Assembly (NCBI GenBank): GCA_934675045.1
Contig: CAKUPI010000003.1
Location: 1 to 29,291, forward strand
Source: an uncultured Eubacteriales bacterium
Lineage (GTDB): Bacteria > Bacillota > Clostridia > Oscillospirales > Butyricicoccaceae
Direction of reading: 5' to 3'
DNA length: 29,291 nucleotides
Each line of letters opens with the position of its first letter. Within the stretch, counting starts at the first letter, position 1. Shown here piece by piece: positions 80 to 12,801 of this stretch. Made by a program: the position numbers and the translations under genes. The notes beneath the pieces were generated by a model. It was not told the origin of the DNA, searched no databases, and worked only from the letters and a program-made list of their open reading frames with translations.

Positions 80-1369
80 TCATTCCCACTCGATGGTTCC
101 GGTGGGCTTTGGCGTCAAATCGAACAGCACGCGGTTGACTCCCTTAACCTCGGCCGTGATGCGGGCCGTGATGTGCTGCAGCAGCGCAAACGGAACGTTT
201 TCCACGGTGGCGGTCATCGCGTCGACGGTATTGACGGCGCGGAGAATGACGCACCACTCGTCGGCGCGCTTGTTGTCGCGCACGCCCACCGATTTGATAT
301 CGGGGATGGCGGTGAAATACTGCCACACCTTGCCTTCCAGGCCGTTTTTGGCAAACTCCTCGCGCAAAATGGCGTCGGACTCGCGGACTGCCTCCAGCCG
401 GTCGCGGGTGATGGCGCCCAGGCAGCGAACGCCCAGACCGGGGCCGGGGAAGGGCTGACGGTAGACCATGGCATCGGGCAGGCCGAGCGCCACGCCGCAG
501 GCGCGGACCTCGTCTTTAAAGAGCATTTTCAGCGGCTCTACCAGCTCGAACTGCAAATCCTCGGGAAGGCCGCCCACGTTGTGGTGGCTCTTGACCGCCT
601 TGGCTGTCTTGGTGCCCGATTCGATGATATCGGGGTAAATGGTGCCCTGCGCCAAAAAGTCAATTCCCTCCAGCTTGCGGGCCTCTTCCTCAAAGACGCG
701 GATGAACTCACCGCCGATTATCTTGCGCTTTTGCTCCGGATCGGCCACACCGGCCAGCTTGTCCAGAAAACGGTCGACGGCGTCGACATAAACCAGATTG
801 GCGCCCAGCTCCTTGCCGAACACCTGAATGACCTGCTCCGGCTCGCCCTTGCGCAGCAGGCCGTGATTGACGTGCACGCAGGTCAGCTGTTTTCCAATGG
901 CCTTGATGAGCAGCGCCGCGACGACCGACGAGTCCACGCCGCCGCTGAGCGCCAGCAGAACCTTTTTGTCGCCCACCTGACGGCGGATCAGCTCGACCTG
1001 ATCGGCGATGAAGTTTTCCATGTTCCAGTTGGCCTCGGCGCCGCAAAGGCCGAAGACGAAGTTCTTCAGCGCCGCCTGACGCTCGGCGTCGTCCTGCGGC
1101 CACGGTGCGTCTCCCTTGTGGTCGACCAGCAGCACGGGAACGGGAGCGTTGTAAATCTCCTTGGCTGCGTCAATCTCCACGCCGTCTACCACGCGGTTGG
1201 GGCCGCCGTTGAGAATAATGCCCTTGACGTTGGGCAGCGACGCCAGCTCCTGCGCTGTGATATCGTGGGGGTAAATCTCTGAATACACACCCAGCGCGCG
1301 AATTTCCCGGGCAATTTTTACATTCTCTTCACTGCCCAGATCGAGAATCAAAATCCTATCCTGTTTCAT
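80..1369 (-). CDS. guaA: GMP synthase with reduced, probably inactive glutaminase domain
   Basis: Converts XMP to GMP with ATP and ammonia, the last step of guanine nucleotide synthesis. The 429-residue product is about 85-100 residues shorter than usual GuaA. The ATP-pyrophosphatase half is complete: PP-loop SGGVDSS at 142-148, then the usual dimerisation domain ending in PKPTGTIEWE. The amino-terminal half starts like a class I glutaminase (ILDLGSEEN, NGGPN), but after VPVL near residue 80 it jumps to KNFVFGLCG at 102-110. This skips the nucleophile-Cys motif (GICYGMQ in the family) and the catalytic His-Glu (QFHPE). It should therefore use free ammonia or a separate glutaminase subunit; that is inference. 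The start is fixed by AGGAGG about 7 bases upstream. It stands alone, behind its own promoter. Confidence 0.93.
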   Translation of the reverse strand: MKQDRILILDLGSEENVKIAREIRALGVYSEIYPHDITAQELASLPNVKGIILNGGPNRVVDGVEIDAAKEIYNAPVPVLLVDHKGDAPWPQDDAERQAALKNFVFGLCGAEANWNMENFIADQVELIRRQVGDKKVLLALSGGVDSSVVAALLIKAIGKQLTCVHVNHGLLRKGEPEQVIQVFGKELGANLVYVDAVDRFLDKLAGVADPEQKRKIIGGEFIRVFEEEARKLEGIDFLAQGTIYPDIIESGTKTAKAVKSHHNVGGLPEDLQFELVEPLKMLFKDEVRACGVALGLPDAMVYRQPFPGPGLGVRCLGAITRDRLEAVRESDAILREEFAKNGLEGKVWQYFTAIPDIKSVGVRDNKRADEWCVILRAVNTVDAMTATVENVPFALLQHITARITAEVKGVNRVLFDLTPKPTGTIEWE

Positions 1370-6030: not shown

Positions 6031-6990
6031 ATGAAGAAGCGTATTTTAACGGGTGACCGCACAACGGGCAAGCTGCATCTGGGCCACTATGTCGGCAGCC
6101 TTCAAAGCCGCGTCAATCTCCAGCACGAATACGACACCTTTATTTTAATGGCCGATATTCAGGCCCTGACCACCCACTTTGAAAACCCCGCTCTCATTCA
6201 CCAGAGCATTCTCGAGGTCGCCATGGACAATCTCTCGGTCGGCCTTGACCCCAACGTGGTCACCTTTGTCCAGCAGTCGGCCGTTTCCTCCATCGCCGAG
6301 CTGACGATTTTCTATTCCATGCTGGTCAGCGTCAACACGCTGCGCCACAACCCCACCATCAAGACCGAGGCCAGCCAGTACGGCTACGACGATATGACCT
6401 ACGGCTTTTTGGGCTACCCCGTCAGCCAGACGGCCGACATCACCTTCTGCAACGCCCATCTGGTCCCCGTCGGCGAGGATCAGGCCCCCCACCTTGAGCT
6501 GACGCGCAAAATTGTGCGCCGCTTCAACAGCATGTACGCCCCCGTGCTGGTCGAGCCGCAGATCATGCTGAGCCGCTGCCCCCGCCTCATCGGTCTGGAC
6601 GGCAACGCCATTTATCTGTCCGACGACCGCGACACGGTGCACAAAAAGGTCATGAACGCGCTGACCGACAAAAGCCGCCTGCAAAAAACCGACCCCGGCC
6701 ACCCCGAGGTGTGTACGGTCAGCGCCTACCACAAGGCCTTCAACCCCGACGAGTACGACAACGTCTGCGACCTGTGCCGCAAGGGCGCCATCGGCTGCGT
6801 CGCCTGCAAAAAAAACCTGTCCGGCGTCCTCAACGGCATGATGGACCCCTTCCGCGAAAGGCGCGCCTATTACGAGTCGCATCTCGACGAGGTCAAGGAA
6901 ATCATCCGCTCCGGCAGCCAAAAGGCCAACGAAATCGGCAACGAAACGGTACGTCAGGTCAAAGAGGCCATGAACGTCATCATCAAGTAA
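6031..6990 (+). CDS. trpS: tryptophanyl-tRNA synthetase lacking the KMSKS loop, Fe-S type
   Basis: Charges tRNA-Trp; class Ic synthetase of 319 residues. The ATP site motif HLGHY is at 16-20 and the Trp-pocket region VPVGEDQ at 146-151. The second class I motif is absent: RLIGLDGNA (186-193) runs directly into IYLSDD, where relatives have KMSKS between two GN/GNA stretches. Cysteines 228, 249, 256 and 259 (C-x20-C-x6-C-x2-C) match the [4Fe-4S] pattern of Thermotoga maritima TrpRS (C-x22-C-x6-C-x2-C). An in-frame ATG exists at 5995, but it lies in the promoter -10, so I start at 6031 (AGGGAG 9 bases before). Activity without KMSKS would be expected to be severely reduced; an assembly or population variant is possible. 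Confidence 0.92.
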   Translation: MKKRILTGDRTTGKLHLGHYVGSLQSRVNLQHEYDTFILMADIQALTTHFENPALIHQSILEVAMDNLSVGLDPNVVTFVQQSAVSSIAELTIFYSMLVSVNTLRHNPTIKTEASQYGYDDMTYGFLGYPVSQTADITFCNAHLVPVGEDQAPHLELTRKIVRRFNSMYAPVLVEPQIMLSRCPRLIGLDGNAIYLSDDRDTVHKKVMNALTDKSRLQKTDPGHPEVCTVSAYHKAFNPDEYDNVCDLCRKGAIGCVACKKNLSGVLNGMMDPFRERRAYYESHLDEVKEIIRSGSQKANEIGNETVRQVKEAMNVIIK

Positions 6991-11439: not shown

Positions 11440-12801
11440 CTATTCACAGGATATTCCGGCCACAGCCTGTTCGATGACCGACGCGGCCTTTTGCGCCCAT
11501 TGTGTGACCTGCTGCGCGTCGCGCCCCTCGACCATGACGCGCACCAGCGCCTCGGTGCCCGACGGGCGGATCAGAATGCGTCCGTCGCTGCCGAACGCGG
11601 CCTCAATCTGCGCCGCCACCTCGCGCACGGCGGGCAGGCCGGCCACCTGCTTTTTGACGCTGTTGGGCGCTTTGACGTTGAGGGTGACCTGCGGGTAAAT
11701 GGCCACCCGGTCGCGCAGCTCCGAGGCCTTTTTGCCCGAGGCGCTCAGCATGCACAAAAAGTGCGCCGCCGTCAGCTCGCCGTCGCCCGTCGTGGCGTAG
11801 TCGGACAAAATGACATGCCCCGACTGCTCGCCGCCCAGGTTCCAGCCCTTCTGCTGCATTTCCTCGAGCACATACCGGTCGCCCACCTTGGTGCATCCGA
11901 CCTCGATGCCCCGCTCGCGGCAAAAGGCGCGCAGGCCGAGGTTGGACATGACGGTGGCCGACACGCCGCCCTGCAAGGCGCCCTCGGCGTGCATTTTTTC
12001 CGCCAGCAGGGCCAGAATGCAGTCGCCGTCAATGACGCGGCCCTTTTCGTCGACCAGCAGGCAGCGATCGGCGTCGCCGTCAAAGGCAACGCCCATGTCA
12101 TAGCCGCCCTCGGTCACCCTGGCGCACAGGTCCTCCATGTGCGTGGAGCCGCAGCGCTCGTTGATGTTGACGCCGTTGGGCGAGTGGTGAATGAGGGTGA
12201 CCTCGGCGCCCAGCGCGCCGAAAATGCGGCCGGCCGTGGCGCTTGCGGCGCCGTTGGCGCAGTCGATGACAATGCGCATTCCCTCAATGCGCCCCGGCGC
12301 GCACTTGATGATGTGGTCGGTGTATTCTACCTCGGCCGAAAGCTCAAGGTGGGTAATGCGGCCCAGCTCCGCGCCGCTGACCATGGCCTCTTGCGGCGGG
12401 TTTTCGATAAACCGCTCGATCTCCTCTTCCTGCTCGTCGGTCAGCTTGTAGCCCCGGCTTCCGAAAATCTTGATGCCGTTGTGCTCAAAGGGGTTGTGCG
12501 ACGCCGAAATGACAAATCCGGCGTTGACGGCGTGCGTCGCCGTCAGCAGCGCGACGGCCGGCGTGGGCAAAACGCCCAGCGACACGACGTCGACCCCGGC
12601 GGCGCAGATGCCCGCCTCGAGCGCGGCTTCGAGCATGCCGCCCGAAATGCGGGTGTCGCGCCCGATGAAAAAGCAGGCGCGGTGCTTAAAGTCCCGGGTC
12701 AGCACCCAGGCCGAAGCCACGCCGATTTTATAGGCAAGCTCCGCCGTCAGCTCCACGTTGGCGACGCCGCGCGCGCCGTCGGTTCCGAAATATTTTCCCA
12801 T
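11440..12801 (-). CDS. glmM: phosphoglucosamine mutase
   Basis: Interconverts glucosamine-6-phosphate and glucosamine-1-phosphate, the step after GlmS, here encoded directly upstream of it. The 453 residues show the four-domain alpha-D-phosphohexomutase layout: FGTDGARG at 5-12, the phosphoserine loop ISASHNP with Ser101, the Mg-binding DGDADR at 241-246, and the phosphate-binding RPSGTEALVRV near the C-terminus. The start has GAGGAAG 6 bases before it. It begins 14 bases after the ruvB stop, so it belongs to the same transcript. All key residues are present. Confidence 0.97.
   Translation of the reverse strand: MGKYFGTDGARGVANVELTAELAYKIGVASAWVLTRDFKHRACFFIGRDTRISGGMLEAALEAGICAAGVDVVSLGVLPTPAVALLTATHAVNAGFVISASHNPFEHNGIKIFGSRGYKLTDEQEEEIERFIENPPQEAMVSGAELGRITHLELSAEVEYTDHIIKCAPGRIEGMRIVIDCANGAASATAGRIFGALGAEVTLIHHSPNGVNINERCGSTHMEDLCARVTEGGYDMGVAFDGDADRCLLVDEKGRVIDGDCILALLAEKMHAEGALQGGVSATVMSNLGLRAFCRERGIEVGCTKVGDRYVLEEMQQKGWNLGGEQSGHVILSDYATTGDGELTAAHFLCMLSASGKKASELRDRVAIYPQVTLNVKAPNSVKKQVAGLPAVREVAAQIEAAFGSDGRILIRPSGTEALVRVMVEGRDAQQVTQWAQKAASVIEQAVAGISCE

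Follow-up and report, generated by a model that had tools for sequence, protein, structure and literature searches.

The best solved relative of the tryptophanyl-tRNA synthetase (TrpRS) considered here is TrpRS II of Deinococcus radiodurans (PDB 2a4m and 1yi8), which has the KMSKS loop of class I synthetases (AKMSKSLGNA in the alignment). A second described system is the [4Fe-4S] TrpRS of Thermotoga maritima (TM0492, PDB 2g36). According to PMC2954223, KMSKS of this enzyme lies at residues 193-197, the anticodon-binding domain of [4Fe-4S] TrpRS carries the motif C-x(21-24)-C-x6-C-x2-C, and the first spacing in T. maritima is C-x22-C. The window, by which we mean the whole stretch of 29,291 nucleotides analysed from an uncultured Eubacteriales bacterium, encodes a TrpRS that differs from both enzymes in having no such loop. 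Its four-cysteine motif, C228-x20-C249-x6-C256-x2-C259 (6712..6807, forward strand), resembles the [4Fe-4S] TrpRS signature: the last three cysteines fit the published spacing, and the first spacing, x20, is one below the lower end of the range and compares with x22 in T. maritima (PMC2954223). Every one of 20 aligned proteins has all four cysteines, whereas D. radiodurans TrpRS II has other residues at these positions. By this resemblance the motif is [4Fe-4S]-like and a putative cluster site.

The gene, trpS (6031..6990, forward strand), begins with ATG at 6031 and encodes 319 amino acids. In profile searches the product scored 238.6 bits against TIGR00233 (cut-off 176.75) and 151.8 bits against PF00579 (cut-off 21.1). 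The class I HIGH motif is present as HLGH (residues 16-19), and a nine-residue gap replaces the class I KMSKS loop. Because the loop is absent although the family cut-offs are passed, the protein is, judged from its sequence, defective or aberrant and an incomplete member of the bacterial TrpRS family. At the junction (6592..6633, forward strand) codons for GLDGNA are followed directly by those for IYLSDDRD; in the alignments, relatives have the nine residues KMGKSLGNA in between. A preliminary description of this DNA had reported a clean in-frame loss of nine residues with aligned flanks at 6586-6627. The DNA there reads as it stated, and the loss is exact against D. radiodurans TrpRS II and against the orthologues of four genomes (G001, G002, G007 and G008). 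In the D. radiodurans alignment the nine-residue gap falls exactly at KMSKS, and two minor gaps, one of a single residue and one of two, occur elsewhere. Two details of that description required correction. The residues that it numbered 187-198 span L186-D199 when counted from the ATG at 6031, and the KMSKS that it attributed to close relatives is KMGKS in this clade (119 KMGKS, one KMGQS and one without the loop among the 121 matches listed, including the window's own).

These 121 proteins comprise the best 120 of 8000 candidates scored in a whole-protein search and one more from a search with the region of residues 176-217. In a motif count, since repeated, the window's own protein (P0001) was the only loop-less one among the matches listed; the other 120 keep the loop. 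Likewise, the region search (16 candidates, 15 of which passed) recovered no loop-less protein besides the window's own. The closest of the matches listed, P0002 (328 aa, from ENA, representing five member sequences), is identical to P0001 at 319 of 319 aligned residues and differs by nine gap columns, where it retains the KMGKS loop. A KM-x-KS motif was also found in 45 of 46 relative loci (L001-L016 and L029-L058, three genes being represented twice); the exception, L016, proved not to be a TrpRS but a spurious hit, and the motif count leaves it out. All five orthologues compared at the site (L001, L002, L010, L060 and L062) have the loop, L010 with a short downstream flank, as only 13 codons, counted from the first loop residue, precede the end of its contig. 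A degenerate DNA pattern of the loop-less junction had no match in 394 genomes of the order, a weak negative because the intact control pattern matched just 4 of the 394; much of the order probably uses a more distant TrpRS. The nearest named records are metagenome-assembled genomes labelled 'uncultured Clostridium sp.' and 'uncultured Clostridia bacterium'. A natural variant in the sense of a lineage trait, one of the options raised in the preliminary description, did not gain support, no second loop-less protein being found among those examined. In a search of the open-licence PMC literature, none of the papers listed reports, in its title or the abstract shown, a naturally occurring TrpRS or other class I synthetase that lacks KMSKS.

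Within trpS the window carries a single copy of GGCAACGCC, located at 6601-6609 as previously described; by DNA comparison the surviving repeat copy is GGCAACGCC(A) at 6601..6610 (forward strand), one of two that stand 27 bases apart in intact orthologues. A further copy of GGCAACGCC lies outside the gene, at 12085. Copies of the sequence flank the loop in four of the five orthologues (L001, L010, L060 and L062); in the fifth, L002, the second copy differs by one base. The repeat is 10 bp long in L010, L060 and L062, where the next codon begins with A, and the same would hold for the window. The KMGKS loop is thus framed by an exact, coded direct repeat of 9-10 bp in L001 (4332-4448), L010 (5541-5620), L060 (12727-12843) and L062 (17388-17504). 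The repeats stem from the protein sequence, in which Gly-Asn-Ala stands before and after the loop and is encoded both times by GGC AAC GCC; GNA-x6-GNA is found in 99 of the 121 proteins among the matches listed, window included.

Slippage between GNA-coding repeats, deleting 27 bases, had been proposed from the window alone, and the predicted GGCAACGCC pairs in the orthologues (four exact, the fifth with one mismatch) support it. The one copy in the window against two in the orthologues reads as the footprint of a deletion between short direct repeats. For the window's own species the repeat pair is extrapolated from related species, P0002 having been compared as a protein. The starting gene would be the ancestral trpS of a Clostridia-type bacterium, from which the 27-bp stretch between two direct repeats of 9-10 bp was probably lost via slipped-strand replication or template switching. 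Direct repeats of at least 9 bp with a period of 12-60 number 13 in 17,357 bases of L063, 13 in 20,000 of L060, 9 in 20,000 of L062 and 20 in the window, that is, about one per 1.3-2.2 kb in the sequences compared. Therefore, a deletion striking this loop needs no special cause. Phase variation was also considered and rejected, since an inter-repeat deletion should not be reversible.

Most of the window can be aligned with a single contig of G008, at a DNA identity of about 75-82% (about 67% over guaA), and this conserved synteny places trpS at the ancestral locus. Protein searches and TIGR00233 each found a single trpS per genome in the five genomes whose trpS is most similar (G001, G002, G003, G007 and G008), a count that could be too low given that genome completeness is not stated; the G003 gene is truncated at the end of its contig and falls slightly below the TIGR00233 cut-off. 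A second match to PF00579 in the genomes searched is presumably TyrRS. Among the 28 window ORFs compared with relatives by tblastn, some of them with a single relative, trpS alone shows a gap of more than 4 residues against orthologues (guaA, which matches in two pieces, was treated apart), so there is no sign of general poor contig quality. Scans of the window with Rfam at gathering thresholds and for tRNAs gave no matches.

The guaA gene of the window (80-1369, reverse strand) encodes a GMP synthase of 429 aa in which the synthetase domain is complete and the GATase domain is present only in its first part (TIGR00888 positions 1-74 of 188). The 120 GuaA homologues listed, including the window's own, are 429 aa (112), 439 aa (7) or 539 aa (1) long. 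The nucleophile motif G[IVL]C[YLFHW]G and HPE occur in none of these 120 listed matches; as a control, both are found in all five GuaA proteins of close genomes. The latter align with the window protein as two disjoint segments, of 56% and 36-42% identity, and their open frames are 523-565 aa long. Where a source is named, as for a few of the listed homologues (Flavonifractor, Lawsonibacter and others), the annotation is GMP synthase, glutamine-hydrolyzing. The window protein appears to be a GMP synthase that naturally lacks a functional glutaminase. Enzymes of this type are probably ammonia-dependent, which would make 'glutamine-hydrolyzing' a misnomer. GMP synthetases are able to accept external ammonia in vitro, according to PMC10526850. 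A search at title and abstract level found, among the papers listed, no published account of such a glutaminase-less GMP synthase. With Flavonifractor-type genes the window guaA shares about 90% identity, versus 56% (synthetase part) with the GuaA of the five close genomes, and most neighbouring window genes are about 70-97% identical to those of close genomes. Because it is nearer to Flavonifractor-type genes, unlike its neighbours, the short guaA is likely to represent a lateral replacement.

The predicted structure of the loop-less TrpRS, built on a 53-row alignment, is of high confidence, superposes on TrpRS II over 319 residues and has the TrpRS fold; a shallow alignment of 20 relatives gave a pLDDT of 38.2 and was discarded. 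According to this model the fold should survive loop loss, and the product would fold as a normal TrpRS, keeping the tryptophan pocket and anticodon domain. With both KMGKS lysines missing, stabilisation of the ATP/PPi transition state, and hence activation, should be severely reduced. Tryptophan activation should therefore be crippled, and we infer a loss of activity.

In our judgement the locus quite probably records a very recent 27-bp deletion between repeats in an ordinary TrpRS, most likely a product of amplification or assembly, or a minor allele, and not the working form of the population. An otherwise identical intact protein with zero other changes, the single trpS found in each close genome and the lack of any other loop-less relative among those examined all favour a deletion that is unfixed or artefactual. 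The living population would then most likely not rely on the loop-less form, and a fixed loop-less essential enzyme is unlikely. The preliminary description had held that an intact loop in reads or sister assemblies of this locus would mark the deletion as an assembly or minor-variant artefact. The sequence homologues go part of the way: the usual state of the protein has the loop. As counterpoints to an artefact, the remainder of the contig looks clean, and the loop-less P0001 is listed on two contigs, the window's among them, so it was possibly assembled more than once, albeit possibly from one data set. Common de Bruijn assemblers are not expected to collapse a repeat as short as 9-10 bp, and the deletion should therefore be present in at least some DNA molecules. 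A search of the open-licence PMC literature for assembly errors producing in-frame deletions found nothing.

Three other readings are less probable. That the deletion is real and fixed in a strain with a second, unrelated TrpRS elsewhere, the window copy being a fresh pseudogene with an intact frame, seems improbable: two TrpRS-like genes do occur in three more distant genomes (G009, G019 and G026) among 60 relatives searched, but only one turned up in each of the five genomes whose trpS is most similar, and the rest of the window gene is without decay. A natural, fixed and functional loop-less TrpRS, in which another residue or partner would make the phosphate contacts and the tRNA would still be charged, is very unlikely. 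The model without the loop speaks for it. PMC10450160 also reports an acceleration of activation by about 10^6-fold for class I 'protozymes', which precede the KMSKS half, and a contribution of only 0.32 kcal/mol from the KMSKS lysines in a LeuRS urzyme, figures that make some residual activity plausible. It is opposed by the retention of the loop in the other 120 of the 121 proteins listed and in all 45 TrpRS loci among the 46 checked, three genes being counted twice, and by the lack of any compensating change relative to the intact P0002. We give hardly any credence to a repurposed paralogue, such as a tryptophan sensor or tRNA binder that has shed catalysis. In its favour, no part of P0002 other than the loop is missing, and a tryptophan pocket and an anticodon domain are therefore to be expected; yet the gene sits at the ancestral trpS locus, its product is identical to P0002 outside the gap, and no second trpS is known. 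The new role once suggested for this copy is likewise unsupported, because the protein has not diverged from its intact homologue.

If, as is likely, the loop-less trpS is an artefactual deletion or a minor allele, it is of little importance beyond the caution that it gives. If it were true that the loop-less enzyme works, the accepted role of KMSKS would be challenged and the loop would be dispensable in a class I synthetase. For this TrpRS clade, the catalytic loop is a built-in site of in-frame deletion, because GC-rich codon choice can turn the coded Gly-Asn-Ala repeat into a direct repeat of 9-10 bp, and after such a deletion the ORF stays open and the product still passes the family cut-offs.
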